The translations under genes were made by a program, and so were the position numbers. Of a stretch of DNA of 64,000 nt, positions 3,428 through 61,466 are shown in pieces. The DNA comes from Crocosphaera sp. UHCC 0190. Its GTDB lineage: Bacteria > Cyanobacteriota > Cyanobacteriia > Cyanobacteriales > Microcystaceae. The stretch lies in contig NZ_JAYGHP010000016.1 in assembly GCF_034932065.1 (NCBI RefSeq), forward strand, positions 1-64,000. The letters are read 5' to 3'. The notes beneath the pieces are model-generated. The model worked only from the letters and a program-made list of their open reading frames with translations. It had not been told where the DNA came from and searched no databases. Numbering within the stretch: position 1 is the first letter of the stretch; the number at the start of each line of letters is the position of its first letter.

Positions 3428-4340
3428 CCTGTAAACGCCTTACGGCATCAAAGATTGAAACACTAAACATTATTCAGAACGATATGTTTAAAAGTTTTGT
3501 GATCAACGCCTTACGGCATCAAAGGTTGAGACAGAATTTTTTCAAGGCGTATCTCTCGAATATATTCCCAGATGTGATCAACGCCTTACGGCATCAAAGG
3601 TTAAGACAGTGCGCTCCCCCGTGATGCGAAGGCGATCGCATTCCATGTGATCAACGCCTTACGGCATCAAAGGTTAAGACAGATAAGTGACATCTGACGG
3701 GCGATCGCTGTTATAAAGTGATCAACGCCTTACGGCATCAAAGGTTAAGACAGTATTATATTGAGTGGACAAACCAGGCGGGCCCATGTGATCAACGCCT
3801 TACGGCATCAAAGGTTAAGACAGTTGACAAAATTATTCGCCAATCAAAAGTTGTCTAGAATGTGATCAACGCCTTACGGCATCAAAGGTTAAGACAGGAT
3901 TGCTTGCCCAAAAATCATGCGCTGGACAACTGGAGTGATCAACGCCTTACGGCATCAAAGGTTAAGACAGATTTCGGCTTTTCTCTTAGAACGAATTGTT
4001 AAACTCGTGATCAACGCCTTACGGCATCAAAGGTTAAGACAGTTTGCTGATACCCTCAAGAAAAGCCATATCAGGATGAGTGATCAACGCCTTACGGCAT
4101 CAAAGGTTAAGACAGGCTGTGGTCTTCAACGTACTGTAGAAACTGCCTGTTAGAGTGATCAACGCCTTACGGCATCAAAGGTTAAGACAGATAAGTCAGG
4201 AATATAAGAAAGTTAAACAAGTTAAGTGTGATCAACGCCTTACGGCATCAAAGGTTAAGACAGGGTACATAGAGAAACGAAAAACTTACTAACGAGGCAA
4301 ACAAGTGATCAACGCCTTACGGCATCAAAGGTTAAGACAG
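3428..4340 (-). CRISPR. CRISPR array, 13 repeats and 12 spacers
   Basis: The plus strand shows 36-nt repeats starting GTGATCAACGCCTTACGG and ending AAAGGTTAAGACAG, at 3499, 3574, 3647, 3718, 3788, 3862, 3935, 4007, 4080, 4155, 4228 and 4305. A degenerate terminal copy lies at 3428-3463, and the copy at 3499 has one change. Spacers are 34-41 nt. The decayed end is distal from cas2, so the leader is on the right and the array is read on the minus strand. The crRNA-sense repeat then carries AUGCC-GUAA-GGCGU, a 5-bp stem with a GNRA-type loop, and an 8-nt UUGAUCAC tail that would be the 5' handle after Cas6 cleavage. Confidence 0.98.
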
Positions 4341-4594
4341 AGCGACGGCTGAAAGCCTTAATTTATCGATGCCCCTACTCAATTTTACAAGCACCTCTGG
4401 TCAAATGGCTAGTGCGCCTCCCCAATTGGGACTTATTGACCAAATCGCGTTAGGCAAAGATGGCTTCGGACATAGATTACAGCGTTTTACAAGCACCTAT
4501 AAAGCGTGTAAAAATTCATCAAACCCTTATCTACTCTGAAATAGAGGCAGTTTACATGGCCGAAGAAACGAAACAATCAGAGGTGCTTGCATTT
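4341..4594 (-). promoter_or_regulatory. Putative CRISPR leader
   Basis: 254 bp between the intact end of the array and cas2, with no convincing gene. It contains two direct copies of TTTTACAAGCACCT (4383-4396 and 4485-4498) and an inverted relative AGGTGCTTGCATTTT starting at 4581. These could be leader motifs for spacer acquisition or array transcription. The role is inferred from position only. Confidence 0.55.
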
Positions 4595-4888
4595 TTAGAC
4601 AACTCGAAATCCCTTCTCATCCAATAACCAAGTATTAGGACGATTATACTTGGGTAAATTTTTCACACATTGTTGAGACAAGCGAATTAGGATTAAATCA
4701 TCTTCAGTGGTTAGAATTTTCTCTAATTCCCAACGAAGTTTTTCCCGCATTCGTTGACTAAGCCAACAGCGAAAAATAGAGTATTGAAGACGCTCACCAT
4801 AACCTTCTAAGAGTTTATAGGCTTTACGCCACCGTTTGGGACAGCGAATATCGTAACAGATGAGATACCAATTTTTGAGTTCAGCCAT
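4595..4888 (-). CDS. cas2: CRISPR-associated endoribonuclease/adaptation protein Cas2
   Basis: 97 aa, typical Cas2 size. The ferredoxin-like fold is visible from the first strand WYLICYDI, with the conserved Asp at the end of beta-1, followed by RWRKAYKLLEGYGERLQYSIFRCWLS. Cas2 dimers bridge Cas1 dimers in the spacer-integration complex. The gene starts 8 bp after the cas4-cas1 fusion and is the last gene before the leader, so it is probably co-transcribed with the cas operon. Confidence 0.93.
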   Translation of the reverse strand: MAELKNWYLICYDIRCPKRWRKAYKLLEGYGERLQYSIFRCWLSQRMREKLRWELEKILTTEDDLILIRLSQQCVKNLPKYNRPNTWLLDEKGFRVV

Positions 4889-4896
4889 ATCTCACC

Positions 4897-6573
4897 TCAC
4901 CGTACAATCAACTGACCAAATAAACCGCCTTCCCCACACCATTCTTTTTCGAGTAAGCGGACTTCTAACTCCAACAAACGGCGATAGGTCAAGGAATAGC
5001 CCGTTACTGGATGTTTCCAGGATTCTGCTTTACGCTGTTCATAAAGATTGATGAATTTTCGCCGTCCACTGTCACTTAACCAAACTTGTTGTCCTCGTAC
5101 ATCAAAGTCAGCTTCAGTGTCCCATTGCTGACGATTAATAGAAGTCACCACAATCATGTCAACTAAAGGAACTCGAAAAATCTCCATTAAATCTAGTGCC
5201 AAGGGAGGAGCTTGGGTGCGAGGTTGATGATAAAATCCTAAAGCGGGTTCAAGTCCCACTGTGAGGATCGCATTCATTACATCCTTTATTAATAAGGAAT
5301 AACCAAAGCTCAACATGGCATTAAAACGATCTTTGGGAGGACGACGATTACGACCAGCAAACCGCAGTGATTCAGGAATATCTTTCCCTAAAATATTGGG
5401 TAATGCTCCAAAATATAAAGCAGCTAAATTTCCTTCAAATCCTAATAATGAGTCAAGAGACTCTACCTTTGGGACTTGTTTAAGAACCGCTTTCATTTGT
5501 GAGATGGCTTTTTCTAATTCAGCCGAATCTTGCGATCGCTTTTGCTTTCCTCTCATCAGAAACTTACGCTGTCCTTCCCCTCGACATTTCACCAATTTAC
5601 GAGCCAATTCTAAGCAAAACTCTGTCTTAGTTAACGCTTCATACTGACGAATACGCCGTTGAATACTGCCAGAACGAGTGTCAAGACTTCCCACATAACG
5701 CCCACCTCCTGAGACAAAATGAATGCCAACATCCTTATAAGAGAGAAAATGGAGAGCTTGGGTAGAGATTTGGGAAAAACTATGGAGAACTACTTGACTC
5801 ACCTGCTGTATAGAAACCGTTTCATCCGGTTCATTACGTCGGCTAATCTTTAGTTGTTCTCCCGTGCGTCCCACTCTGGTTCCTGGTTCAAGCACATGAA
5901 TGACTTCTCGTTCGTCATCTTGAGGAAACAAACGAACCGGATGCCATTCTTTATTGTGGGCCAGTCTGGCCTCCTCTGGTAAACAAACCGGAGACAGAGA
6001 ACAACGAGAGCATAAATACTCATTGCTGACCACAGGGGGACGATAAGCCGATGTTCTTAACTCCCGTGCCTGTTTAATCGTATCAGACACCCATTTTCGC
6101 CCTTCCTGGTCAAAAGGAACATGAACCAATACATTATCGGCATGATAACGAATTCTCCCCTCTTGAACTGTAATTCCGAGGGCTGCCTCAATTAAACAGC
6201 AATAAGCTAGAATTTGCAGCTTATCACTGTCCCAGGCTTGAGGTTGCTTATTCTCATCTCGATGACAACGCCCCCGTTTATGCTCATAAGGGATAGTTTG
6301 ACCATCACGAGTCCGCAAAGCGTCAACCCGTCCCCGCAGTCCTAAGATTTCATCTTCAAGGTAAAGATCAAGCCATTCCTCATCCTCTTGTTTATCGATT
6401 TCCTCATGTAACCGTCGTCCGGCAAAAACCGCCGCATCTTGGGTGTAAAGTTCTTCCACTTCCTCAAGGTAGAATAAACGAGGACAATAAGCAAAGGCAT
6501 GGAGAGCAGAAACTCTGATGGTATCTTCAGTTAAGTTAATGCTGGTTCTTTGGTCTAAATCAGTTGTTTGCAT
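4897..6573 (-). CDS. cas4-cas1: Cas4-Cas1 fusion protein
   Basis: 558 aa in two parts. Residues ~20-205 are Cas4: FAYCPRLFYL with Cys30, the nuclease core LRGRVDALR and YEHKRG, a QAWDSDKLQILAYC helix and a CSRCSLSPVC cluster that completes an Fe-S site. From about residue 215 it is Cas1 (YVGSLDTRSG, QRRIRQYEAL, LLGFEGNLAALYFGAL with the catalytic Glu, LSFGYSLLIKDVMNAI, GLEPALGFYH). Cas1 integrates spacers and Cas4 trims PAM-containing prespacers. Fusions of the two are known in several type I systems, including the Myxococcus type. A 154-bp gap separates it from cas5. Confidence 0.95.
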   Translation of the reverse strand: MQTTDLDQRTSINLTEDTIRVSALHAFAYCPRLFYLEEVEELYTQDAAVFAGRRLHEEIDKQEDEEWLDLYLEDEILGLRGRVDALRTRDGQTIPYEHKRGRCHRDENKQPQAWDSDKLQILAYCCLIEAALGITVQEGRIRYHADNVLVHVPFDQEGRKWVSDTIKQARELRTSAYRPPVVSNEYLCSRCSLSPVCLPEEARLAHNKEWHPVRLFPQDDEREVIHVLEPGTRVGRTGEQLKISRRNEPDETVSIQQVSQVVLHSFSQISTQALHFLSYKDVGIHFVSGGGRYVGSLDTRSGSIQRRIRQYEALTKTEFCLELARKLVKCRGEGQRKFLMRGKQKRSQDSAELEKAISQMKAVLKQVPKVESLDSLLGFEGNLAALYFGALPNILGKDIPESLRFAGRNRRPPKDRFNAMLSFGYSLLIKDVMNAILTVGLEPALGFYHQPRTQAPPLALDLMEIFRVPLVDMIVVTSINRQQWDTEADFDVRGQQVWLSDSGRRKFINLYEQRKAESWKHPVTGYSLTYRRLLELEVRLLEKEWCGEGGLFGQLIVR

Positions 6574-8299: not shown

Positions 8300-9781
8300 T
8301 TAAACAGACATTTCTAACTCTTGTTCAGAATCTAAATTAATGTTAGATTCATCAAGTGCTTCTTCAGGAATTTCTGGTGTTCCATCTTTTCCTTTTCCTG
8401 TATAACTAGCGATGGCTAATAAAGCTAAATCTCTGGCTTGTTTCCAGTTATTATCTTTGTGCAGCCATTGATATATTTCTGCACCAACACCTCTGGTTGC
8501 TTTGCTACGATGACGACTTAAAAAATCGACCATTGTTTTAGCAAAATCTTGTTGGGTACTTGGTCTTAGTAAACGATTAATGACTTTATCAGTTGCTTGT
8601 TTATAATCAAGGGGACGACCTTGTTTTTGAGCTTGTATAATTTGCTCTCGTAAGAAACTACTAAAAGCTCCTTGTACAGCATCAAAAAATGTTTGCTCTA
8701 AAACATCAAGATATTGGGACATACTAATTAATCCTTTTCGTTCATAAAGTTCATTTTGTTTGTAGAAGTCGTAGAAACCTGAATACCAGGGTTTACCAGT
8801 AATCAGGTTGTCGCAAAGCCAAGGTAAAATCTTGGAAATAGCTAACCATGTTTCTCCTTTATCATTAGTGCGAACTTGAGGTTTAAAAAACTGAAAGGCT
8901 GAATCATATAAAGCTAGAATTTCGTCATTAGCTTTGACTCTATAAACGGCTTGTTTGAGGTAACTTTGACTACCATCCCATTGCTGTTTACCCAATTGAT
9001 AAACTTCACAGTAATCTACTCGAAGATCTTGACTATCTTCAATGAGTTTTTCTTGTAATAAAAAGCGTAATGCCGATTCTCCAGAACTACTAGAACGAAA
9101 ATCTCGGTAACTACTTCCAGAAAAAATCTTACGCCGTTTTACCCACTCTTTGATATTTTTTATTTCGGGAATAACGACGGCTGAACGATATCCAGATAAT
9201 TGATAGTAACTACACGCTAATGGCAGAAAAACAAGAGCTAAAAAACCTTGGGGAGATTCTTGATAAGCTCCATGAGCAAAACATTCAACTAAACCGGGTA
9301 AATGATGACCTTTGATGGGGATGTTGGGTTTAAATGTTCCCTTGCTGCTGAAAGCATCCTTAAAATCTCTAGTGTAGTAACAATCTTCAATAGGACGAAA
9401 AGGGCGAGAAATTTCGGGTTGACCTTCATCGATCATAAAGCTTAAAGATACTTCGTTTTTACTCAGTTTTCTTTGTTGCCCATGTTGAAGGAATGTTCTT
9501 GTTACCCCTTCAGTAAAGGTATATTTTCCTTGTTGATCGAGATTAAGTGCAGGAACATCTAAATAACCATCTTCAAGATGATAAGTTTGTCTAAGTAAAC
9601 TTAAAATAGCTTCTTGATCACTACACTCCCATGACAGATTTACTTCGTCTTCAGTAACTTTCCATGAAAAAGGAACATCCGACGGATTGATAGCATCCAA
9701 AGCTAATGCTAAACCAGCGATTCCCCCACGGTGAGGTAATAAGGTATTGGGATCAAAAATAGATAAAGTAAGTTCTGTCAT
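8300..9781 (-). CDS. cas8: Type I Cascade large subunit Cas8 (Cmx8/DevT-like)
   Basis: 493 aa. The opening LTLSIFDPNTLLPHRGGIAGLALALDAI and the mid-protein FAHGAYQESPQGFLALVFLPLACSYYQLSGYRSAVVIPE match what I know of Cmx8-type large subunits. Assignment also rests on size and on position between cas3 and cas7. Cas8 recognises the PAM and recruits Cas3. It overlaps the end of cas3 by 4 bp (ATGA). I am sure it is the large subunit but less sure of the exact subtype label. Confidence 0.82.
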   Translation of the reverse strand: MTELTLSIFDPNTLLPHRGGIAGLALALDAINPSDVPFSWKVTEDEVNLSWECSDQEAILSLLRQTYHLEDGYLDVPALNLDQQGKYTFTEGVTRTFLQHGQQRKLSKNEVSLSFMIDEGQPEISRPFRPIEDCYYTRDFKDAFSSKGTFKPNIPIKGHHLPGLVECFAHGAYQESPQGFLALVFLPLACSYYQLSGYRSAVVIPEIKNIKEWVKRRKIFSGSSYRDFRSSSSGESALRFLLQEKLIEDSQDLRVDYCEVYQLGKQQWDGSQSYLKQAVYRVKANDEILALYDSAFQFFKPQVRTNDKGETWLAISKILPWLCDNLITGKPWYSGFYDFYKQNELYERKGLISMSQYLDVLEQTFFDAVQGAFSSFLREQIIQAQKQGRPLDYKQATDKVINRLLRPSTQQDFAKTMVDFLSRHRSKATRGVGAEIYQWLHKDNNWKQARDLALLAIASYTGKGKDGTPEIPEEALDESNINLDSEQELEMSV

Positions 9782-12126
9782 TGTGATTTTTTCTCCTCAT
9801 TGTTAATTTCATAAGCCCCTAATTCAGAGGAATAAGCCCACTGATTGTTAGGGGCAACTGGATAAAATTTATACTTATCCCAGTCCTTAACCTTTTTTGA
9901 ATCAGCAGGAATAGGAACGGTATAACGAGGTATTTCTTTTGACCGTAAAGACTTAATAGTTTTCAAATCTTGCTCAAGTAATACCGTCACATTAAAACCA
10001 GCCTCTCGCAAAAATGTAGGATAGGTCTGCCAACTTTTATCCAATAAAACTGATTCTTTATCAGGCTTACCTTTTTCGCCAGATTGTTCTAACCATTGTG
10101 CTAAATCTGCTTGACAAACTTCATCAGTGAATGACTTAATTAAATTTAATCCATTTTCAAGTTCTTCTTGACTATAGGGATAGCTAACTTTTTCATCAGG
10201 ATAAAATAAGGCATCTTTTGCCTGTCCGCAATGGCGACGATTTAATCGCCCCAAACGCTGAATTAATCCGGCTGGATTGGCAATTTGACTAACTAATAAT
10301 GTCGCTGATAAATCAAGGGACATTTCAGCAACTTGGGTAGCGATCACCAACATTGGCTCATGATTTTCTGGTTTAAAAGCATCTACAACATCACGGTGAT
10401 GTTGTACCCGATCTTGATAGCGAAACCGACTATGGTAGATTAAAGCGTTTAAGCCTTTCGCCTTTGCTTCTTTATAAACAGCAATTGCTGTATTTACCTG
10501 ATTACAAACCCATAGCACTTTTCCCCTATTGTTAAGTTCTTGTTCAACCCTGTCCCAATCAGGCGTTTCAGTATAGTGGAAATGATAACGGGGTTGTGTT
10601 TCTAATTCTTCAGGGCCACTAATAATCTCAATAGGTTCTCCCACAGCTTCTAAGATCATTTCCTTTTGCCAAGGTAAAAATGAAGCTGACATCAGTAAAA
10701 TAGGTGCTTTGACAACTTCGAGAAAACGTAGTAACGCCCCAAATAGTCGATTATCGTAACAATGAACTTCGTCAAAGACAAAAGCAGCTTGTGCGATCGC
10801 AGGAAAACAATAAATGGGTCTACGATTACATTGAAGCAGTCCGAGAACAGTATCTACTGTACAAACAATGGCTTCTCGTCCCCAGGCTTTAAAAGACTCC
10901 AATTTAAGCGCACCTTCATTATTAATTCCTTCTCCTGCATCGTCTTCTTCTCCTGTCATTGCCATTTCTAAATCCACATCAGCACGAGAATGAAGAAGAA
11001 CGGAATCAACTTGATTATGAACATAGTCCAGAAAACCCTCAGTGCTAGTCCCTGTTGTTGGATAACAAAATATCAATTTTCTGCCCAATGCTTTAGATTT
11101 TGCCCAATTATAAGCTCCCAATGTTTTCCCTGTACCACAGCCGGCCCGTGCTAGGGTAACTCTTGCTGAACTTTGTGCTAATTTGACTTGAAATGGTCTT
11201 AATTGATTTCCCTCAAGTCGAGCATTAATTACTTGTTGAAGTTTCTGCTCATTAAGAGTTCTTGTGACTTCAACTGTAATCCATTCTTTAATAGATGTTC
11301 TTCTTTCCTTCTTAATCGATTCATTGGCATTAGGGATGGCGGAACCAATTGCATCTCCGGCAATTAACAGAGCTTTGATAACAGCCAGAAAAACAGGATC
11401 TGGTTGCCATTCATTCGAGAGAAACTCTCTAAGTTTTCCTCTCTTATCCTTGATCTCTTTAATTGACCAGACAAGAGAAGCTTCTTCAAAAAGCTGTTTT
11501 TTAAACTCCTTTGAAAATTTAATCTTCTCAGGTAAATTTAGAGCTTTTACTCCATATTTTAGCAGTTGATGAAAGTGTCGATTAAATTGAGGTTTCCCCT
11601 TAACTCTATCAATGACGTAGAAAGATAATTTATCATCTCCACTCTGACGAATTTCTCCTAATTCATCCGTACATTTTCCTCCTCGACCTCCTAATTTAAG
11701 ATGATGTCCCCCTGCTGCTGCTAAAGCTATTAAAAAATCGCCTTCTCCTTCCTCTAACCATTCCTTAAATTCCCAAGCTAACAGCACTGAAAGCACTTCA
11801 TGTCGCAGAAGTTGAGGGTTATCGGGAAGAAATCGTTTGGGATAAGCTTTTGACATTTTAGAACGTACAACTCCTTGAAAATGCTCATTAGCTTTTCCCC
11901 AGTCATGAATATATGCACTCTTACGGGCTGTCGCTCTGAGATAGGAGAGGGTATAATTAAGACCAAACTGTTGAATCAGGCGATCACCTAAAATATCAAC
12001 TAAGGTAGTGACAGCATTGACCACATCTGCGGTGTGTCCAACCAATCCATAAGAACCTTTCCAGTGACCTAAATTAAAGGACTTAGCCAGTAAAATATTA
12101 GGGTCTAGTTTAGGATTAAGCTGCAT
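9778..12126 (-). CDS. cas3: CRISPR-associated nuclease-helicase Cas3
   Basis: About 782 aa from the ATG at 12126. I chose this start because AAGGAGG lies 6 bp upstream and the overlap with cas6 drops to 11 bp; an upstream in-frame start at 12180 would overlap cas6 by 65 bp. The HD nuclease comes first (HTADVVNA, AYIHDWGKANEHFQ, GGHHLKLGG). A superfamily-2 helicase follows with Walker A AGCGTGKT, the DEVH box in FVFDEVHCYD, SAS, and QRLGRLNRR as motif VI. Cas3 is recruited by target-bound Cascade to unwind and degrade DNA. All catalytic motifs appear intact. Confidence 0.95.
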   Translation of the reverse strand: MQLNPKLDPNILLAKSFNLGHWKGSYGLVGHTADVVNAVTTLVDILGDRLIQQFGLNYTLSYLRATARKSAYIHDWGKANEHFQGVVRSKMSKAYPKRFLPDNPQLLRHEVLSVLLAWEFKEWLEEGEGDFLIALAAAGGHHLKLGGRGGKCTDELGEIRQSGDDKLSFYVIDRVKGKPQFNRHFHQLLKYGVKALNLPEKIKFSKEFKKQLFEEASLVWSIKEIKDKRGKLREFLSNEWQPDPVFLAVIKALLIAGDAIGSAIPNANESIKKERRTSIKEWITVEVTRTLNEQKLQQVINARLEGNQLRPFQVKLAQSSARVTLARAGCGTGKTLGAYNWAKSKALGRKLIFCYPTTGTSTEGFLDYVHNQVDSVLLHSRADVDLEMAMTGEEDDAGEGINNEGALKLESFKAWGREAIVCTVDTVLGLLQCNRRPIYCFPAIAQAAFVFDEVHCYDNRLFGALLRFLEVVKAPILLMSASFLPWQKEMILEAVGEPIEIISGPEELETQPRYHFHYTETPDWDRVEQELNNRGKVLWVCNQVNTAIAVYKEAKAKGLNALIYHSRFRYQDRVQHHRDVVDAFKPENHEPMLVIATQVAEMSLDLSATLLVSQIANPAGLIQRLGRLNRRHCGQAKDALFYPDEKVSYPYSQEELENGLNLIKSFTDEVCQADLAQWLEQSGEKGKPDKESVLLDKSWQTYPTFLREAGFNVTVLLEQDLKTIKSLRSKEIPRYTVPIPADSKKVKDWDKYKFYPVAPNNQWAYSSELGAYEINNEEKKSQ

Positions 12127-32404: not shown

Positions 32405-32683
32405 TTGGAAGGGGTGTGTGAGTGTGCGTTGTGTCGTTGGGGGTTTTGTCCCATGTCTGTTTTCTCTTTCCGTTCTGTTGCTGGTTCTGCGCTTGGTTCT
32501 GGCTGTGTATCTTGGTGGTGCCGTAGTTCGCTGTCGTCGTTCTCTGGTCGGGTGTTGGTGGCTTGTTTTGTCTCGTTCTCGGCTGCTTCTGGTTTTGCTG
32601 GTGTGTGGGCTGGTCGTTGCGGCCGGTCTGTTGCGGTTCGGCGTTGTTCGGTGGGTTGGCTGGTTTCTGTTCCGGTTTCCTAG
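32405..32683 (+). pseudogene. A-depleted remnant related to the SLOG-like gene, copy 1
   Basis: A plus-strand frame of 92 codons in a region with only 5 A in the 240 nt 32461-32700. Its end reads VSFSAASGFAGVWAGRCGRSVAV and SVGWLVSVPVS. This lines up with VFSVASGRWGVGRGAFAGRSVACV and GGVWVSFPSS of the intact gene at 33632. It lacks the conserved start and the GSGSGSW end, so it is probably a decayed copy. Low complexity makes the alignment suggestive, not proven. Confidence 0.5.
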
Positions 32684-32844
32684 CTACGTTTGGAGGGGGC
32701 TTGTCCTCCCTTTTTTCTTTCTTGTGGGTGGCCGGTTTGGCTGCCTTTTTTTATATGATGTTACGATCGCCTTCACTAAAAGACATTGGACGGTAAGGCG
32801 TAACCTGAAAGCTACTGATAATAAAGCAAAGGTTATTGATCCTT

Positions 32845-33292: not shown

Positions 33293-33360
33293 CCTACGAT
33301 TAAAGCCCGTTCGGGCAGAGGGAGAAGAGAGAGAGGAGAGAGAGAGAGGGTAGGGGTGTT

Positions 33361-33570
33361 GGCTTTTTGGCTTGCTGGTTGGTGTTTCGGGCTTTCTGGT
33401 TGTGTGGCTCTCTTGTAGTTCCTGGTGTTTGCTCGCTCGTCGGGCGGGGGTCTTTTCGGCTTCGTTGTCCTCTGTTGGTGGTGTGGCCCCCCGCCTCTCC
33501 TCGCTCGCGGTGGCGGTCGGTGGTGGGGCGGGGGTTGGCTCTGGCTCTGGTTTTTTTTTCCTTTTGGGGT
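33361..33570 (+). pseudogene. A-depleted remnant related to the SLOG-like gene, copy 2
   Basis: 210 nt with a single A. Frames here read GVCSLVGRGSFRLR and, in a second frame, GGGAGVGSGSGFFFLLGLPIAWLP. These recall GRGAFAGRS and SGSGSGSW...ALGLGL of the intact gene but are out of frame with each other. It is probably a decayed copy abutting the promoter of the intact gene. Support is modest because of the biased composition. Confidence 0.4.
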
Positions 33571-33599
33571 TGCCTATTGCATGGCTGCCATGTTATAAT
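33570..33599 (+). promoter_or_regulatory. Promoter with central palindromic operator
   Basis: -35 TTGCCT (33570-33575), 18-bp spacer, -10 TATAAT (33594-33599). The spacer contains the perfect palindrome CATGGCTGCCATG (33580-33592), one base before the -10. A repressor bound there would block RNA polymerase. The six A of this line and the two just after are nearly the only A for 200 nt on either side. The same palindrome occurs at 35158, 35192 and 35225. Confidence 0.75.
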
Positions 33600-33631
33600 G
33601 GTTGTATAGTCTGGTTTTGGGGGTTTCTCCT

Positions 33632-34546
33632 GTGTCTTCTTCTTTGGTTTCGGCTTCTCCTTCTCCTTCCTCTGTTTCTGCTCCGTTTCCTGGGTCTGTT
33701 GCCTCTCTCGCTGCTTCTGCTGGTGCTGCTTTTCTCTGTGTTCGTCCTTCTGCTCGTTCCTTCTCTCGGTGGGTTTGTGTTTGCCTGTTTGGGTCTGCTG
33801 CTGCTGCTGCTGCTTTTGCGGGTTCGGCTTGTTCTGCTTTTGGCTTTCCGTTTTGTGCTGTTCGGTCTTTGGGTTCGGGGTTTGGGGTTTCCGTTCCCTG
33901 CTTTGTTTCTTCCTTCTCCTCTCCGGTGGGTTCTTTGCCCTGTCTCTGGTGTTCCTTCGGTGGTGGTTCTGCCCCTGTTCCCCCGTCTCCTTCTGCACCG
34001 TCTTCTCCTTCTCTTCCTTCTGCCGTTTCTTCGGTGTTGTCTTCGGCGGCGGCCGTTGGGTTTTCCGGTTCCCGTCGGTTGGTTCCTGGGGCCGCTGCGG
34101 TGGTGGCTGCTGCGGTGGCTGCTGTTCCCCCGTCGGTTCCCTTTTCGGTTGGTTGTGCGCGTGGCGTGGATTCCCTCGCCCGTAGCCTTTGTCCTGGGGC
34201 CTCGGTGTTCTCGGTTGCGTCGGGTCGTTGGGGTGTTGGTCGGGGTGCGTTCGCGGGTCGGTCTGTTGCTTGCGTTCGTTCCGTGGCCGTGCCTGGGGGG
34301 GTGTGGGTGTCGTTTCCGTCTTCCCCTTGTCCTGTTGGGTTGGCCCCGTCGCCGTCGTCTTCCCGTTGCTTTTCGGGTTCGGGTTCGGGTTCGTGGGCCT
34401 CCCTGGCCGTTGCCTTGGGCCTTGGCCTTCGTTGCGTTGTTTGGCTCCCTGCGGGGGTTTCGGCTCCCGTTGGTTGGGGTCTGGTTTCGGTTGGTGGTGG
34501 TTGGTGGGTTTTTTCCCCCGCCGCCGTGCAGTTGTCTCTGTTCTAG
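33632..34546 (+). CDS. DprA/SLOG-like protein encoded by an almost A-free coding strand
   Basis: About 304 aa. The frame is open from 33602, but the -10 at 33594 puts transcription start near 33606, so I prefer GTG at 33632 with GGGGG 8 bp upstream. The first 140 residues are Ser/Pro/Ala/Val low complexity. From 34052 a Rossmann-like SLOG core follows: VGFSGSR, SVGCARGVDSLAR, GAFAGRSVACVRSVA, WVSFPSSPCPVGL and SGSGSGSWASLAVALGLGL, matching DprA motifs (GSR, SGLARGID, RNRIIAGLS, SGSLITA). SLOG proteins bind ssDNA or nucleotide ligands. Only 3 A occur between 33609 and 34529: in GCA, in AGC and in GAT, which encodes the only Asp, in the GVD motif. Confidence 0.65.
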   Translation: MSSSLVSASPSPSSVSAPFPGSVASLAASAGAAFLCVRPSARSFSRWVCVCLFGSAAAAAAFAGSACSAFGFPFCAVRSLGSGFGVSVPCFVSSFSSPVGSLPCLWCSFGGGSAPVPPSPSAPSSPSLPSAVSSVLSSAAAVGFSGSRRLVPGAAAVVAAAVAAVPPSVPFSVGCARGVDSLARSLCPGASVFSVASGRWGVGRGAFAGRSVACVRSVAVPGGVWVSFPSSPCPVGLAPSPSSSRCFSGSGSGSWASLAVALGLGLRCVVWLPAGVSAPVGWGLVSVGGGWWVFSPAAVQLSLF

Positions 34547-34559
34547 TTCTTTTGTTCTA

Positions 34560-34573
34560 CCCCCTCTTGGGGG
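34560..34573 (+). repeat. Intergenic CCCCC/GGGGG hairpin 1
   Basis: CCCCC-TCTT-GGGGG between the SLOG-like gene and the next gene, without a following T-run, so it is not a typical terminator. It is the first of a series of similar hairpins in this operon (34910, 35900, 36716, 38034, 38993, 39822). Confidence 0.65.
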
Positions 34574-36191: not shown

Positions 36192-36710
36192 ATGAATGAA
36201 ACCCCTAAGATTTATGTTGCTTGTTTAGCCGCTTACAACAATGGACATTTACACGGTGAATGGATTGATTGTGACCAAGATGCTGAAGACATCTATGCAG
36301 AGATTAAAGAGATGTTAAAAACTTCCCCCGTCCGACATTTTGAATCTTGTGAAGAATGGGCGATCCATGATTACGAAAACTGGCATGAGATTAAACTTCA
36401 TGAATATGAATCAATCGAAAAAGTAGCAGAATTAGGTCAAGCAATCAAAAAACACGGGGCAGCGATAGCCGCTTATTATGCCCACTTTAAAAGTTTAGAA
36501 AATTTTGAAGATTATTCTCAAGGAGAATATGAAAGTGAGGAGGATTTTGTCAAGAATTACTTAACAGAAAATGGTACTTTTGAAGCCATTGAAAAGCTTG
36601 GACTATACACATCTTATATAGATTGTGAAGCCATAGCCCGTGACTGGTTTTGTAGTGATTATGTGAGCTTAGAATCAGACGGAAAGACTTACATTTTTAC
36701 TAATCATTAA
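36192..36710 (+). CDS. ardA: Antirestriction protein ArdA
   Basis: 172 aa, normal ArdA length. IYVACLAAYNNGHLHGEWID at the N-terminus and EEWAIHDYENWHEIKLHEYESIEKVAELGQAI are the ArdA landmarks; the second contains the acidic antirestriction motif. Acidic throughout. ArdA mimics bent B-DNA and blocks type I restriction enzymes, protecting incoming plasmids or transposons. Its presence supports a mobile origin for this operon. Confidence 0.88.
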   Translation: MNETPKIYVACLAAYNNGHLHGEWIDCDQDAEDIYAEIKEMLKTSPVRHFESCEEWAIHDYENWHEIKLHEYESIEKVAELGQAIKKHGAAIAAYYAHFKSLENFEDYSQGEYESEEDFVKNYLTENGTFEAIEKLGLYTSYIDCEAIARDWFCSDYVSLESDGKTYIFTNH

Positions 36711-39045: not shown

Positions 39046-39576
39046 ATGGAAAACGCTAGACTTTGGGAACTTTCTAACGAAATAGTCGAACTTGAAAGCT
39101 TAATTGATGAGATAGAAGACTGTGAAGATTTAACTGAATCTGAGAAAGAAGTTAGACTTAATCATGTCTTTTCTGAATGGCTTAACAGTGATTCAAAGTT
39201 TAATGAAAAGGCGGAAAAAGTAGCGCATTTCATTAAATATTTAGAAGCTGTTACAGAAGCCCGCCAAGCTGAAGCTAAACGCCTTAAAACTTTAGCAGAA
39301 ACCAGCGAGAAACAAGCAACAAAATTACGGGAATATTTAGCTAAAGAAATGCTACGAGTTGATAAACGAAAAGTAGAGGGAGTGACTTGTAAACTCTCAA
39401 TGAGACGTAAACAACCCCGCATCTGTTTAAATGTTGAACCCGAACAATTACCCAGTGAATACCAACGGGTAAAAATAGAAGCCAATATGACAGAAATTCG
39501 GAAAGCTTTGAAAGGTAAAAAGCTTGATTGGGCTTTCTTGAGTGAATCAATTGAATACAGTTTGATGATTAAATAG
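39046..39576 (+). CDS. Siphovirus Gp157-family protein
   Basis: 176 aa. A long coiled coil (KAEKVAHFIKYLEAVTEARQAEAKRLKTLAETSEKQATKLREYLAKEML) is followed by VEGVTCKLSMRRKQPRICLN and VKIEANMTEIRKALKGKKLDWAFLSES. This is the Gp157 arrangement. Phages use such proteins in replication or recombination modules beside annealing proteins, as here. Confidence 0.85.
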   Translation: MENARLWELSNEIVELESLIDEIEDCEDLTESEKEVRLNHVFSEWLNSDSKFNEKAEKVAHFIKYLEAVTEARQAEAKRLKTLAETSEKQATKLREYLAKEMLRVDKRKVEGVTCKLSMRRKQPRICLNVEPEQLPSEYQRVKIEANMTEIRKALKGKKLDWAFLSESIEYSLMIK

Positions 39577-45889: not shown

Positions 45890-46137
45890 AATAGCTGCAC
45901 GCTCCACGATATTAACCTTAACCCTACATTGAACAAAGGGGATTAGAATAAGGTCGAAGAATACAACAAAATCTCTCTTACGTTGTATTAGTGGTTCCCG
46001 CCCTAATGAATAAACAGCTATCAGGCAACAAAAGTCTAATATAATCAGTAATATTACTGAGATGCGCGTTTAAGCTTGCTTAAATTGCTGTTTTTTGCCT
46101 AAAAGCTTTTTGCTTTTTGCCTTGGAGCGAAGGGACT

Positions 46138-47025
46138 ATGACTCCTCTGACCACCTATCACCCCCCCATCACCGAAGTTGATAACGATGCCCAAGTTATC
46201 TATTTATGGCTATCGGGGTTAAGTCCTAGTACCCAAAAAACTTACACTCGCACCGTTAACCAATTCTTGAGTTTCGTTGAAAAACCTTTGGCTAAAGTGT
46301 TATTAGAGGATCTGACAAGGTGGGTTGATCTGCTCTTTCTTAAAGACTATTCTCAAAATTCCATCGCCCTCAAAGTTTCCACCATTAAAAGTTTATTCTC
46401 TTACGCTTGGAAAATTGGCTATTTATCCCTCAATATCGCCAAAGCTGTCAAAGCTCCAAGCGGTATTAGTGCCTTACATGAACGCATTTTAGAACAGCCT
46501 GATGTTAAAGCTTTAATTGAAGCGGCGAAAGTAGGACGCGGTGCTACCGCACTCGCGGAGCGAGACCGCACACTATTAACTTTGATTTACGCCACTGGAC
46601 TTAGGGCAACAGAAGTATTGAGTATTAACTGGCGTGACTTACGACCTCGTAAAGAAGGCGGACAAGTAACCGTTACAGGGAAAGGGGGAAAGGTAAGGAC
46701 GGTATTAATCAGTCAAAATCTTTATCAACAGTTACAGCAGCTTAAGCGTTCTAATAAAACCGATGCTGTGTTTACGACCTGCCGAGGTAATCGCTTAGAC
46801 CGTCATCAACTCCATCGTATCGTCAAAGCAGCAGCAGAAAAAGCTGGTATTAATGAACATACGTCAACCCATTGGTTACGTCATGCCCATGCTTGTCATA
46901 GCTTAGAAAATGGCTGTGATATTGATGTTTTGATGCGATCGCTTGGCCATTCGTCTTTGACTGTTACCTCTAAATATTTACACGCTAGACCCAATGAAGG
47001 CAGTAGTCAATTTATTGATATTTAA
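46138..47025 (+). CDS. Tyrosine recombinase (XerC/D-like)
   Basis: 295 aa from the ATG at 46138. The SAM-like N-terminal domain (LSGLSPSTQKTYTRTVNQFLSFV) is followed by the catalytic domain with ATGLRATEVLSI (Arg), HWLRHAHACHSLENGCDIDVLMRSLGHSSLTVTSKYLHAR (H-x-x-R, GH, Tyr). All catalytic residues are present. It may resolve dimers or integrate the replicon that follows (47-63 kb). Confidence 0.9.
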   Translation: MTPLTTYHPPITEVDNDAQVIYLWLSGLSPSTQKTYTRTVNQFLSFVEKPLAKVLLEDLTRWVDLLFLKDYSQNSIALKVSTIKSLFSYAWKIGYLSLNIAKAVKAPSGISALHERILEQPDVKALIEAAKVGRGATALAERDRTLLTLIYATGLRATEVLSINWRDLRPRKEGGQVTVTGKGGKVRTVLISQNLYQQLQQLKRSNKTDAVFTTCRGNRLDRHQLHRIVKAAAEKAGINEHTSTHWLRHAHACHSLENGCDIDVLMRSLGHSSLTVTSKYLHARPNEGSSQFIDI

Positions 47026-51292: not shown

Positions 51293-52157
51293 ACATAATC
51301 CGATTGAGCAATTTTTCAGGCTCACTCCCAACGTCAGAGACAAATTACTCGAATGTAAGCTAACGGCTGCGGAATGGCGGATGTGGTGTTATCTCGTTAG
51401 CCTTGACCCGTTTGGTGATCGCGGTGCTAAATTCTCTCCGGCTGAGTTAATGCTCAAATGCGGAATTAAAAAGACAGCCTACTTTAAAGCTAAAGCAAAA
51501 TTCCAACAACTCGGACTCTTTGATTTTAAGGATGGAGTCACCAAGGTGATCAACCTCCAAGGTCAATTCTCACACTCCGCAAACCCAGACTATTCTCAAC
51601 AAGATAAACTTATTGATTCCGCAAACGCGGAGTCTCAGTCCGCAAACGCGGAGTCCCAGTCCGCAAACGCGGAGTCCCAGTCCGCAAACGCGGAGTCCCA
51701 GTCCGCAAACGCGGAGTCCCAGTCCGCAAACGCGGAGTCCCAGTCCGCAAACGCGGAGTTTAAACCGCCAAAACCCGCATCAGACAAGGATTCTGGAACG
51801 CCTCAGACTATTCAGACTTATTCAGACTTTATAAAGACTCTCTCAGAAGGCGAAAGGGAGAGGTTTTTTAATTTTGTGAGAAAGCAGATCAAGAATTTTC
51901 CCAAGCCAATCAATGATTTACAGGCTTGGTTAGCGACACCCAATAAGGCCGGAGAAAACCGATGGGAGGTTTATTACCAAAACTTTTTAAAGGAACAAAT
52001 GCCGAAAAAGCAACACCGGCCTTTGCGAGAGCAGATTGAAGAACGTCGCCGCAAGATAACTGAACAACGTCGTCAAAAAATGATTGAAGAAGGTGAACAA
52101 AACACATCAGATACCATCACCGACAACAAAGATTTGAACGGAGGGCAAACACAATGA
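51285..52157 (+). CDS. Winged-helix replication initiator-like protein with internal repeats
   Basis: 290 aa from ATG 51285 with AGGAGG 8 bp upstream. Residues ~5-85 are a winged helix (EQFFRLTPNVRDKLLECKLTAAEWRMWCYLVSLDPFGDRGAKFSPAELMLKCGIKKTAYFKAKAKF) like DnaD or plasmid Rep proteins. Then come seven SANAESQ repeats encoded by 21-bp direct repeats, and a basic C-terminal helix. The stop overlaps the dnaB start (ATGA). The layout resembles lambda O and P, where the origin lies inside O; the initiator role is inferred. Confidence 0.68.
   Translation: MAKHNPIEQFFRLTPNVRDKLLECKLTAAEWRMWCYLVSLDPFGDRGAKFSPAELMLKCGIKKTAYFKAKAKFQQLGLFDFKDGVTKVINLQGQFSHSANPDYSQQDKLIDSANAESQSANAESQSANAESQSANAESQSANAESQSANAESQSANAEFKPPKPASDKDSGTPQTIQTYSDFIKTLSEGERERFFNFVRKQIKNFPKPINDLQAWLATPNKAGENRWEVYYQNFLKEQMPKKQHRPLREQIEERRRKITEQRRQKMIEEGEQNTSDTITDNKDLNGGQTQ
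51618..51758 (+). repeat. Seven 21-bp iteron-like repeats inside the initiator gene
   Basis: Six exact-length 21-mers and a seventh partial, each containing the inverted repeat TCCGC-AAAC-GCGGA. The first starts at 51618. The spacing of 21 bp is two helical turns, as in plasmid iterons. Just after, 51803-51840 holds an AT-rich direct repeat (TATTCAGACT), a candidate unwinding element. Together they look like an origin embedded in coding sequence. Confidence 0.7.
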
Positions 52158-53506
52158 CGAGTTTACCGCCTCAAAACATTGAAGCTGAAGAATCCATTCT
52201 TGGTGGGATTTTAGTCGATCCTGAAGCGATGGGACGGATAGTAGATTTAATCACGGCAGAAGCGTTTTATGTCAAGGGCCATCAAGAGATTTATCAAGCT
52301 GCTTTAAAACTTCATCGCTCCTCACAACCAACGGATGTGATGACGGTTAAAAGTACCCTGGAGGATCATCATTTATTGGAACAAGTCGGGGGAATTGAGA
52401 AGTTAATGCAATTGGTTGACCGCACGGTTTCGGCCGTAAATATTGATCGCTATGCGTTGTTAGTGATGGAGAAATATTTACGCCGTCAATTAATTGCTGC
52501 GGGCCACAACATTGTAGAACTGGGTTTTGAGACAACCCAAGAACTTGATGACATATTTTACCAATCAGAAAAACGGTTATTTGAGGTATCGCAGCAACGC
52601 AGCCGTGGGAAAACCCAACCCAACTGTGAGGTGGCGATTGAGGCTTACCAAACCCTGGAAACCGATAGCCCCATTTATCCCACCGGACTCAACAATTTAG
52701 ATAATCTGATCGTGGGTTGGGAAGCGGGAACCCTCACCCTCCTAGCTGGCCGGCCTTCAATGGGAAAGTCCTTTTGCGCTATGTACTTAGCGGTAGCAAT
52801 GATGGTGCAATACAACCGCTCTGTGGTCTTTTTCTCCCTGGAAATGACCAAAAAACAGCTTGAATACCGACTTTGGAGCTTATTAAGTGTTTTACCCTAC
52901 TACAGTCAATGCAATATCATTCCCATCAGTAACGACCGCTTCCGAAGACACCGTGCGGGCTTAGAACGATTAGAAACCGAAGAAATCGCCACTATTGCCC
53001 AAATCATGGGACTAGCCGCCGAAATGCCCCTGTATCTCAACGATGACCGCAGCCTCACTGTCTCAGTTATGGCCTCAGAATGCCGTCGCCTCATTAGTGA
53101 AAAGAAACCCATTGGATTAATCATTGTCGATTACCTTCAGATGATGGCCGCCGACAGCGAATTGGGCAACCGTAGCTATGAACTGGGGGATGTGGCACGG
53201 GAGTTGTACAAATTAGCCGGAGATTTACAGGTTCCTGTGTTGGCCTTGAGTCAAATTTCGCGGGCAGTAGAAAGTCGTAATGATAAACGCCCCATGATGT
53301 CGGACTTGTCCCAATCAGGAATTTTAGAAATGGTGGCCGATAACATCATTTTGGCCTATCGAGATGACTACTACAACCCTGATACCCCAGACCCAGAAGT
53401 TTTGGAGTTAATCGTCGCTAAAGCCAGACACGGAACCACCGGAACCGCCAAGGTTCTTTTTGACCGAGCTTATGGGCTGATAAAAGTGGGAGAAGAACAA
53501 TGGTAA
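52154..53506 (+). CDS. dnaB: Replicative DNA helicase DnaB
   Basis: 450 aa. N-terminal domain PPQNIEAEESILGGILVDPEAM, linker, then RecA-like domain with Walker A LLAGRPSMGKSFCAMY (near residue 205), FFSLEMTKKQLEYRLWS, IIVDYLQMM and LALSQISRAVESR with an arginine-finger region. Complete DnaB family order. It overlaps the initiator gene by 4 bp and the next gene by 7 bp, so it is translated as a replication operon. It is probably element-specific, as the host would have another copy elsewhere. Confidence 0.93.
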   Translation: MTSLPPQNIEAEESILGGILVDPEAMGRIVDLITAEAFYVKGHQEIYQAALKLHRSSQPTDVMTVKSTLEDHHLLEQVGGIEKLMQLVDRTVSAVNIDRYALLVMEKYLRRQLIAAGHNIVELGFETTQELDDIFYQSEKRLFEVSQQRSRGKTQPNCEVAIEAYQTLETDSPIYPTGLNNLDNLIVGWEAGTLTLLAGRPSMGKSFCAMYLAVAMMVQYNRSVVFFSLEMTKKQLEYRLWSLLSVLPYYSQCNIIPISNDRFRRHRAGLERLETEEIATIAQIMGLAAEMPLYLNDDRSLTVSVMASECRRLISEKKPIGLIIVDYLQMMAADSELGNRSYELGDVARELYKLAGDLQVPVLALSQISRAVESRNDKRPMMSDLSQSGILEMVADNIILAYRDDYYNPDTPDPEVLELIVAKARHGTTGTAKVLFDRAYGLIKVGEEQW

Positions 53507-60483: not shown

Positions 60484-60831
60484 TTACTCATCAATATCCT
60501 TCAAAACATCATCTAAAAGAACTCTTACAATATCAGCCTTTGTCCTACCCGTCTTAGCTGCTAATATCGACAATTTACGGTGCATAGAATCAGGCAAGTC
60601 TACTGTAAATCGTTTCGTCGCTTCTCTTTGTTCAATCGGTTGTAATTTATCCATAATTGAGGGCTTCTTTTCTTCAATAGTTACAGGTTGCTGACTTTCA
60701 ACAGATTTAATGCGTGCAGTTTCTTCTATAGGTTCGGTTTTGGGTAATGAGCTTTCCGATGTCCCATTCTCCCCATAGACAAACTCCTTCGCTAAGGCAT
60801 CATTTAATGGTTTACGTTTATTTACACCCAT
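60484..60831 (-). CDS. ParB-like RHH partition protein
   Basis: 115 aa. A flexible N-terminus and C-terminal RHH (KRFTVDLPDSMHRKLSILAAKTGRTKADIVRVLLDDVL). The ATG overlaps parA by 10 bp. Short RHH partners that bind a centromere and stimulate ParA are common on plasmids. Confidence 0.78.
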   Translation of the reverse strand: MGVNKRKPLNDALAKEFVYGENGTSESSLPKTEPIEETARIKSVESQQPVTIEEKKPSIMDKLQPIEQREATKRFTVDLPDSMHRKLSILAAKTGRTKADIVRVLLDDVLKDIDE

Positions 60832-61466
60832 GACATCACCTCCTTAAATAATTTGTCATATTCATTAGCCGAGTCATTGGCCGGTTTCCCTGAAAAGTCC
60901 CAAACCGTTGCTGACTGTCCTGATGTATCTGCGATCGCTTGTTTTTGATGGATGACTGTCTTCAATAATTTGGCTTCTTTAATTTGGGACAATAACGCGA
61001 TCGCCTCATCTTTAAGTTTTGTCCCCTTGACGGCCCGACTCAGGAAGATACAAACATTAGGTAAACCACCGCGCACTGATTGGGCCTGTTTAACTAACCG
61101 CATGGCATCAGAGGCCGAACGAAGATCCACCCCCGTCGGTTGTACCGGAATAACAGCCAAATCTGAACGAAAAAGGATGGCCCTGGTTGCTTCTGATAAA
61201 CTGGCCGGCCCATCAACAATCACATAATCATAATCAGTCGCTAAAGTCGGAATTTGTTCAAGTAGATCATCAGGAGTTTGAATCACTTTACAAGGAATAG
61301 TGACCCCTTCCATCCCCTCAACCCATTGGGATGATGACCGTTGACTATCAGCATCCACTAATAAGACCGTTTTCTTCTGTTTCACCACCAACCAATAAGC
61401 CAGATGTACCGAAGTCGTTGACTTTGATACCCCTCCCTTCTGATTGACTAAACTAATGATTGCCAT
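60822..61466 (-). CDS. parA: ParA-family partition ATPase
   Basis: 214 aa. Deviant Walker A NQKGGVSKSTTSVHLA (Ser in place of Gly between V and K), motif II VLLVDADSQRSSSQW, YVIVDGPASLSEATRA. Short ParA type without an N-terminal HTH. It positions replicons with its partner. The gene pair indicates that at least part of the window is, or was, a plasmid. Confidence 0.9.
   Translation of the reverse strand: MAIISLVNQKGGVSKSTTSVHLAYWLVVKQKKTVLLVDADSQRSSSQWVEGMEGVTIPCKVIQTPDDLLEQIPTLATDYDYVIVDGPASLSEATRAILFRSDLAVIPVQPTGVDLRSASDAMRLVKQAQSVRGGLPNVCIFLSRAVKGTKLKDEAIALLSQIKEAKLLKTVIHQKQAIADTSGQSATVWDFSGKPANDSANEYDKLFKEVMSWV

Follow-up and report, generated by a model that had tools for sequence, protein, structure and literature searches.

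Single-nucleotide exclusion in genes of bacterial mobile elements: an adenine-less DprA-like family and its cytosine-less AlkB-like neighbour

Messages may escape a nuclease by lacking its target, as mRNAs poor in toxin cut sites (e.g. MazF sites) do, and an adenine-specific process that acts on one strand of a short region operates in the diversity-generating retroelements. In a stretch of 64,000 nucleotides (nt) from Crocosphaera sp. UHCC 0190 (contig NZ_JAYGHP010000016.1, positions 1 to 64,000, forward strand; hereafter ‘the window’, meaning the whole stretch of DNA analysed) we describe a gene (33632..34546, + strand) that is nearly devoid of A on its coding strand, and that departs from both precedents: the exclusion concerns a whole base, not a short motif, and extends over roughly 0.5-1.7 kb, no reverse transcriptase is found in the window's genome, and related elements carry neighbouring genes that lack C. 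Throughout these genes one base is avoided at coding and synonymous positions alike (A in those encoding a DprA-like SLOG domain and its small N-terminal partner domain (NTD), C in those encoding an AlkB-like protein), and in the extreme genes the avoidance includes the leader and the terminator. Phrase searches of open PubMed Central (PMC) text returned no description of natural genes that exclude one nucleotide throughout, across distant groups.

The closest described counterparts of the encoded proteins are the DprA/SLOG proteins and the AlkB 2-oxoglutarate (2OG)/Fe(II) dioxygenases. With the former the A-less family shares a predicted Rossmann/SLOG fold and the GSR and GxD motifs, whereas it differs from them in remaining below the Pfam DprA cut-off (best score 20.4 of 29.6 bits, in a relative of normal A content), in its NTD partner, in a C-terminal clamp motif and in its A-free coding; with the latter the C-less family shares the predicted fold and the HxD...H...R signature, but it is C-free, stands beside A-less genes on mobile elements and stays below the Pfam and NCBIfam cut-offs. 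Other described systems are comparable as possible attackers and not as the thing found here. Among the single-base ribonucleases Csx1/Csm6, whose reported specificities for C and A coincide with the two bases avoided here, SyCsx1 of Synechocystis PCC 6803 is described as having ‘strict specificity for cytosine’, and PfuCsx1 and TonCsm6 are cited as adenosine-specific (PMC9676260); a co-occurrence with Cas10 was not seen. As for the ADP-ribosyltransferases, CmdT is described as modifying the A of GA in mRNA (PMC11618068), while DarT2 and DarT1 are described as modifying thymidine and guanosine in DNA, respectively, with the motif TNTC given for DarT2 of T. aquaticus (PMC11543638); the sequence contexts given for CmdT and DarT2 would not require the loss of every A.

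Adenine exclusion in the window and across the family

Between 33609 and 34529 the coding strand holds 3 A, 258 C, 299 G and 361 T (921 nt), in a window that is 31.0% A as a whole (19822/64000), and the binomial probability of three or fewer A is ~1e-141. The three residues (33997, in the GCA codon at 33995; 34170, in the GAT codon at 34169; 34184, in the AGC codon at 34184) are those listed by the original prediction, made from the sequence alone, which had set them against a region of about 30% A; the extent it gave (33609-34529) lies within genuine depletion and proved too short, as the full depleted zone spans 33353-34573 (15 A in 1221 nt) and a second one covers 32411-32752 (7 A in 342 nt). 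Amino acid content is not the cause of the depletion, because 2000 synonymous recodings with the codon usage of the window gave 76-134 A (mean 104), as compared to the 4 observed in 33632-34543; together with the A-poor terminators described below, these recodings rule out protein composition alone as an explanation.

The gene (GTG start, TAG stop, 304 aa) encodes the NTD (33674..33925, +) fused to the DprA-like SLOG (Rossmann) domain (34055..34543, +), and has A in five of its 305 codons (GCA122, GAT180, AGC185, CAG300 and the stop TAG), of which GAT180 encodes the GVD-motif Asp that is shared by 20 of 20 aligned relatives, and CAG300 the Gln of the C-terminal QLSLF (34529..34543, +). It is preceded by a promoter-like TTGCCT-18-TATAAT (33570..33599, +; 1 found vs 0.1 expected), the spacer of which contains the palindrome CATGGCTGCCATG (33580-33592, +), and further upstream by an A-poor stretch (33353..33569, +; 1 A in 217 nt) that starts directly after a polypurine (GA) tract (33317..33350, +), the upstream border of the depleted zone. 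Directly 3' of the stop lies a terminator-like hairpin (34560..34573, +), beyond which the A content is ordinary. The few A residues of 33353-34573 are found mostly in or just after the promoter-like site, in the four sense codons, and in and after the stop. The second depleted zone coincides with a further A-poor gene, of the NTD family (32405..32683, +; hidden Markov model (HMM) match E 1.2e-18).

A profile search with the SLOG alignment collected 84 loci (65 in GTDB genomes and 19 in IMG/VR; loci are referred to by L numbers and genomes by G numbers), which comprise 81 distinct match sequences, some of them partial, and the related genes of which are not independent samples. Coding-strand A is below 5% in 53 loci (44 of the 65 from GTDB and 9 of the 19 from IMG/VR), 5-20% in 21 and at least 20% in 10, so that A depletion characterises most of the family without being inherent in the fold. 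The suggestion that a protein gene had been forced into A-free codons thereby extends to 53 of 84 homologues, and the outcome that was to speak against it (homologues of normal A content, without conservation) is not what the family presents, most of its members being A-poor. The flanks of the A-poor loci are 12-39% A, which rules out a regional skew, and the recurrence of the depletion in many independent assemblies and in complete plasmids rules out an assembly artefact or vector sequence.

The carriers named in the records are cyanobacteria, Candidatus Contendobacter, Competibacteraceae, metagenome-assembled genomes (MAGs) of Kapabacteria and Ignavibacteria, and a Desulfobulbus MAG, with phyla as given in the sequence records (the assignments of MAGs may be wrong); in the complete chromosome of Roseithermus sacchariphilus (L082) the gene has 1.0% A within a locus of 67% GC. 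Phage structural genes were present in four of the six IMG/VR contigs whose large open reading frames (ORFs) were scanned (terminase in L133, L136, L142 and weakly in L138; portal in L142 and weakly in L138; major head in L136), the gene of L142 having 13.5% A, and a phage collection of 50,697 records gave no match.

At the four-fold degenerate third positions of the 20 genes with less than 1.2% A (of 59 given), A occupies 10 of 2674 sites, and the same genes use AGY for 4 of 519 Ser codons and AGR for 0 of 224 Arg codons; the background at four-fold sites is 24-28% A (56 other ORFs from 15 loci with A-poor genes). Across the 171 pairs formed by 19 low-A genes (11,224 four-fold sites compared) a median of 64% of the sites differ, close to the two-thirds expected under random use of three bases, and A is involved in 52 of the 6994 differences, which argues that the exclusion of A is maintained while silent sites are randomised among G, T and C. 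The avoidance of the base has thus outlasted saturating synonymous divergence.

The stop codons of 45 genes from the 84 loci are TAA in 2 of 30 genes with less than 5% A, in 0 of 10 with 5-15% and in 5 of 5 with more than 15%, and TAA closes 54 of 98 other ORFs (14 of these loci). Downstream of the stop (19 genes) A makes up 2, 6, 5 and 10% of the first four 10-nt bins and 19-31% of those beyond; a terminator recognised by a strict rule follows 5 of the 19 genes, with 2 A in 205 nt up to the end of the T-run (both in the window; none between stop and T-run in L067, L091, L098 and L102) and 94 in the next 250. Near the junction of two A-less genes in L091, L096, L098, L102 and L116, the sole A is that of the first gene's stop. 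As the leader and the terminator of the most extreme genes are depleted as well, the constraint acts on nucleotides and not on the protein. In genes of 5-15% A the residual A at four-fold sites shows a sequence context, GA being the most avoided (0.12 of background; 0.32 after T and 0.51 after C). In L015 the leader is A-free for 167 nt (10879-11045) and the coding region has ~17% A; approximately the last quarter of its SLOG gene (11102-11626) is nearly A-free and the remainder has ordinary A, which looks like a constraint lost or gained in blocks.

The SLOG/NTD protein and its cytosine-less neighbour

Homologues of the window protein, for which no Pfam match was reached, were found in 10 of the 58 relatives' genomes searched (up to 73% identical) and, across the phylum, in 14 of 386 genomes, those of G108, G129 and G266 having ordinary A and that of G042 being a short match. 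The homology falls into two parts (numbered from 33602), residues 137-314 (SLOG) and about 15-127 (NTD), the latter recovered by iterative HMM search in 30 matching frames of the collected loci. The two can be separate genes, the NTD as an A-poor gene of its own: they adjoin one another as A-poor genes in the Contendobacter and Kapabacteria/Ignavibacteria loci, and in the window, L093 and L110 they occupy a single frame.

In an AlphaFold model of the fused protein (64 sequences; predicted local distance difference test (pLDDT) 80), residues ~138-290 match DprA of H. pylori (4ljr_A; Z 12.2, 130 residues, 2.6 Å), DprA of S. pneumoniae (3uqz; Z 11.8) and ShosA of E. coli (8zva; Z 10.5), and the C-terminal domain is predicted from this model to have the SLOG/Rossmann core fold; GSR and GxD motifs are present in the SLOG alignment. 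The gathering score of the DprA profile PF02481 was not reached (the window protein gave no match, and the best member, L045, has the 20.4 of 29.6 bits quoted above), weak matches being seen in 3 of 20 alignment members (best E 0.0031). For the NTD (model residues 15-92) there were weak matches to common small folds only (PulL: Z 7.7, 74 residues, 3.7 Å), and a profile search of solved structures with the SLOG alignment returned three weak, unrelated-looking chains (E 0.26 or worse). Ten amino acids make up nearly everything in the A-less proteins, and yet a DprA-like fold is modelled.

The C-termini of 19 sequences end in QLSLF/QLTLF in 10 cases (the window and nine others, that of L014 one residue longer) and in QLTLI or QPSLL in 4 (L041, L046-L048), the motif being missing in 5 (L017, L018, L042-L044); further clamp-like ends are QISLF in L045 and QLSLF in L155. 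QLxLF is described as the bacterial sliding-clamp-binding consensus, with QLSLF as its full-consensus form (PMC4549789), and by virtue of its C-terminal QLxLF the SLOG protein is a predicted client of the clamp (DnaN). The reading of the frame as DprA/SLOG in the original prediction is borne out by the H. pylori DprA match, albeit outside the reach of Pfam; the clamp motif had been missed, and the C-less partner, which belongs to other elements, was not visible to it.

This partner was encountered in Synechocystis salina (L014/L064), where the gene adjoining the A-less SLOG gene belongs to a tract that has 6-8 C over 677-698 nt. The C content of the AlkB-like family is 0.4% in S. salina (2/462), 0.6% in Stanieria pSTA7437.03 (3/477; the gene that follows is an A-less SLOG gene of 1.1% A), 0.6% in L152 of IMG/VR (3/489), 0.9% in PCC 6803 pSYSX (SGL_RS01465), 1.7% in Anabaena sp. 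90 pANA02, 2.0% in L131, 4.3% in L153, ~7% in Nostoc and Richelia, and 11-25% in distant relatives. The C-less gene is A-rich and not T-rich, and the S. salina protein is without Pro, Ala, Thr and Gln. The sole two C of the S. salina gene fall in the CAT codons of its sole two His (H93 and H136); exactly two His are found in all 7 members examined, both encoded by CAT in the 6 with codons at hand. A model of the protein (5 sequences, pLDDT 91.5) matches human ALKBH5 (7wkv_A; Z 17.4, 147 residues, 2.0 Å) and E. coli AlkB (4zhn_A; Z 16.8, 153/154 residues, 2.5 Å), and H93, D95, H136 and R145 (HxD...H...R; the iron triad and the 2OG-binding Arg) are invariant in 5 of 5 aligned sequences, in keeping with a predicted double-stranded beta-helix fold of the AlkB family. 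The cut-off of the AlkB profile PF13532 was not reached (15.1 of 31.2 bits in L014, no match in L039), nor were those of NCBIfam. In S. salina the excluded base is therefore retained only at the predicted iron ligands, its two C being those of the H93 and H136 codons. In both kinds of gene the excluded base persists chiefly at positions that function appears to require, namely the two His predicted to bind iron, the Asp of GVD, the clamp-motif Gln and the stop codons.

Mobile-element context and further observations

The window encodes an ArdA antirestriction protein (36192..36710, +; PF07275, E 6.7e-39), a Siphovirus Gp157 family protein (39046..39576, +; PF05565, E 1.8e-24), a tyrosine recombinase (46117..47025, +; PF00589, E 1.3e-33), a DnaB-like helicase (52154..53506, +; PF03796, E 2.5e-68) and, in a plasmid-like context, a ParA-like partition ATPase (60822..61466, -; PF13614, E 1.1e-22); its contig also carries a RecD2 helicase and an Mrr-like nuclease. 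Plasmid pSYSX of Synechocystis PCC 6803 holds a C-less/A-less pair in two identical copies (1700 nt compared), near ArdA, Gp157, Rad52 and ParA. Two loci, L042 and L044, combine an A-less SLOG gene with an NTD gene that has 30-35% A and is no more than ~1 kb away (in L042 the values are 30% for the NTD gene and 0.9% for the SLOG gene); as adjoining genes lack different bases, and an ordinary NTD gene can stand beside an A-less SLOG gene, the cause operates per gene or transcription unit.

Polypurine (GA) tracts of ~20-34 nt precede A-less or C-less genes on their coding strand, at a distance of roughly 90-600 nt, in the window and at L014 8457, L015 10843, L041 10555 (-), L037 7517, L040 1474, L078 2786, L081 5662 and L107 5739; in the window, L014 and L015 the depleted zone is bordered by such a tract, and tracts of this kind also occur elsewhere in some loci. 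A palindrome or near-palindrome (CATGG...CCATG or GCGTG...CATGC) immediately precedes the -10 box in the window (33580-33592), at the SLOG genes of L014 and L016 and at the AlkB-like gene of L038, that is, at A-less and C-poor promoters, as if one repressor served both. Several elements have, on the strand opposite the SLOG gene, a small conserved gene (RxGGNPxLxxxQ...) that overlaps or is close to the 3' end of the latter (L015 12025-12240; L016 704-1015; L018 603-890; L038 8313-8786; L040 2702-3202), and further small A-poor genes followed by an A-poor hairpin and a T-run, with neither SLOG nor NTD match, are present at L093 4096-4507 and L117 2458-2807 (-).

The SLOG relative of L045 (9414-9884) has 29% A in total, yet A at 11 of 75 four-fold sites (neighbouring genes: 324 of 865), which may be the constraint in a weak form. 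In G108 and G129, three loci on plasmids have T-poor SLOG relatives (11-16% T); two of the three, L117 and L120, belong by record title to plasmids of Picosynechococcus PCC 7117. We do not claim U as a third excluded base: of seven relatives compared at four-fold sites, T was low at p<0.01 only in L048 (5% vs 19%) and L121 (15% vs 33%), and was high in L045. The T-poor relative of L048 (~9286-9955; 11% T) lies in a cassette-like manner between inverted GA tracts, GTAGAAAGAAAGAGAGG and its complement.

Possible causes of base exclusion

That selection acts on the nucleotides of single units is suggestive of an attack, specific for one base, on either the RNA or its template. The explanation that we favour, tentatively and with something short of even confidence, is that these ‘base-exclusion’ genes of plasmids and phages are shaped by a defence that attacks the missing base in RNA. 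A host or rival defence would attack a single base, candidates being the base-specific HEPN ribonucleases of type III CRISPR (Csx1/Csm6) or an RNA-base modifier such as CmdT; a message without that base would escape cutting or modification, and the element could still make a few proteins, i.e. the DprA-like protein (possibly clamp-associated) and the AlkB-like dioxygenase, which might let it establish itself or reverse the damage. An attack at the RNA level is ranked first because known single-base specificities match, and PCC 6803, the source of SyCsx1, also holds a nearly C-free gene on pSYSX.

Several observations weigh against an attack on RNA. Cas10 (palm2) is not enriched in genomes with a SLOG/NTD gene (10 of 17, as compared to 25 of 35 without; Fisher p 0.53), although a host co-occurrence test has little power where genes move from host to host, and in the genome that contains the window Cas10 gave no match. 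The Csx1 profiles PF09455 and PF22230 gave no match in 373 and 52 genomes, a search uninformative for cyanobacteria in which only two archaeal controls responded; no base-specific RNase common to all the groups involved emerged, and the roles of the products are predictions from models. Intermediate genes are common (the 21 of 84 with 5-20% A), and selection is thus uneven. In the leaders, analysed from consensus boxes and not mapped start sites, a -10-like hexamer lies within 220 nt of 18 of 29 A-poor genes, and the stretch from box to match has 0-3 A in 7 of these and 4-21 A in 11. Furthermore, the 100 nt ahead of the promoter region contain 0 A in the window (33475-33574) and L015, 1 in L067 and 7 of 90 in L064 (19-26 in L065, L066, L073, L083, L097 and L155), and C is missing from at least ~60 nt above the -10 box in the C-less units of L064, L131 and L152; as depleted DNA upstream of a promoter is untranscribed unless there is an earlier start, a cause at the level of DNA is favoured there.

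This upstream depletion, which recurs in several loci, and the DNA-related look of the products (DprA fold, QLSLF clamp motif, AlkB fold) keep alive the main rival idea, on the whole rather unlikely, that it is the template strand that escapes. An A-less coding strand is a T-less template and a C-less one a G-less template, which would evade toxin adducts that stall RNA polymerase, the products then helping to reverse such adducts; AlkB and LOG-type enzymes do act on base adducts or base-ribose bonds, and DarT2 and DarT1 are reported to target just these bases, T and G respectively. DarT, however, is not enriched in host genomes (3 of 17 with the gene and 6 of 35 without). The avoidance of GA does not decide between RNA and DNA, because CmdT (GA) and one DarT2 (coding GA being template TC, as in the TNTC of T. 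aquaticus) both fit. A shortage of one nucleoside triphosphate, or its replacement by a chain-terminating analogue (viperin-like), under which only a message lacking that base could be made, would suit the near-complete avoidance that reaches the leader and terminator of extreme genes; we nevertheless consider it improbable, as an ATP-free message gains little when ATP is required for translation, the sequence context of the residual A is not predicted by it, and the known products of viperin are those of C, U and G, not A.

Still less probable is a strand- and base-specific mutation process (A-targeted reverse transcription of the retroelement kind, or a deaminase), with selection restoring the base only where it is needed. 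A-to-N mutagenesis would end in an A-free tract, and on Anabaena sp. 90 pANA02 (L156) the C-poor AlkB-like gene is followed downstream by a gene with a reverse-transcriptase domain (4025-5599). Selection is preferred to mutation since adjoining genes are short of different bases, an NTD gene beside them may keep ordinary A, the lost base is not replaced by any single one (G, T and C all occur in the A-less genes, and the C-less gene is A-rich and not T-rich, which speaks against a simple deaminase), and RVT_1 gave no match in the genome that contains the window. Of the causes raised by the original prediction, selection for an A-less transcript and for a T-less template both stand, and a mutation process alone is unlikely given neighbours that lack different bases. 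We give the least credence to self-immunity, in which the encoded protein or another gene of the element would be a base-specific weapon against RNA or DNA and the gene would avoid its own target: it would account for different bases missing from different genes, but the SLOG domain matches nucleotide- and single-stranded-DNA-binding folds, and the AlkB family is known to remove base modifications and not to add them. Three further candidates were rejected: an RNA structure aim, as A-less and C-less messages have opposite pairing strength and no common goal, and avoidance of palindromic restriction sites by one gene, which would leave the remainder of the element unprotected (both by reasoning only), as well as UV dimers on the template, since residual four-fold A is better tolerated before G or A (template CT, TT).

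The exclusion of one base is an extreme and easily scanned signature that points to a base-specific threat, and the model strain Synechocystis PCC 6803, which combines a C-less/A-less pair (pSYSX) with an RNase described as cytosine-specific, makes a direct test possible. With rather less assurance than we attach to an attack on RNA itself, we suggest that these genes may embody a general anti-defence principle, in which mobile elements carry a few genes lacking the nucleotide attacked by a base-specific immune effector, and the products of these genes (an AlkB-type base-repair enzyme from the C-less gene, a SLOG/NTD pair with a clamp motif from the A-less ones) undo or withstand that same attack; if this were true, the missing letter would be a readable label naming the enemy's target.
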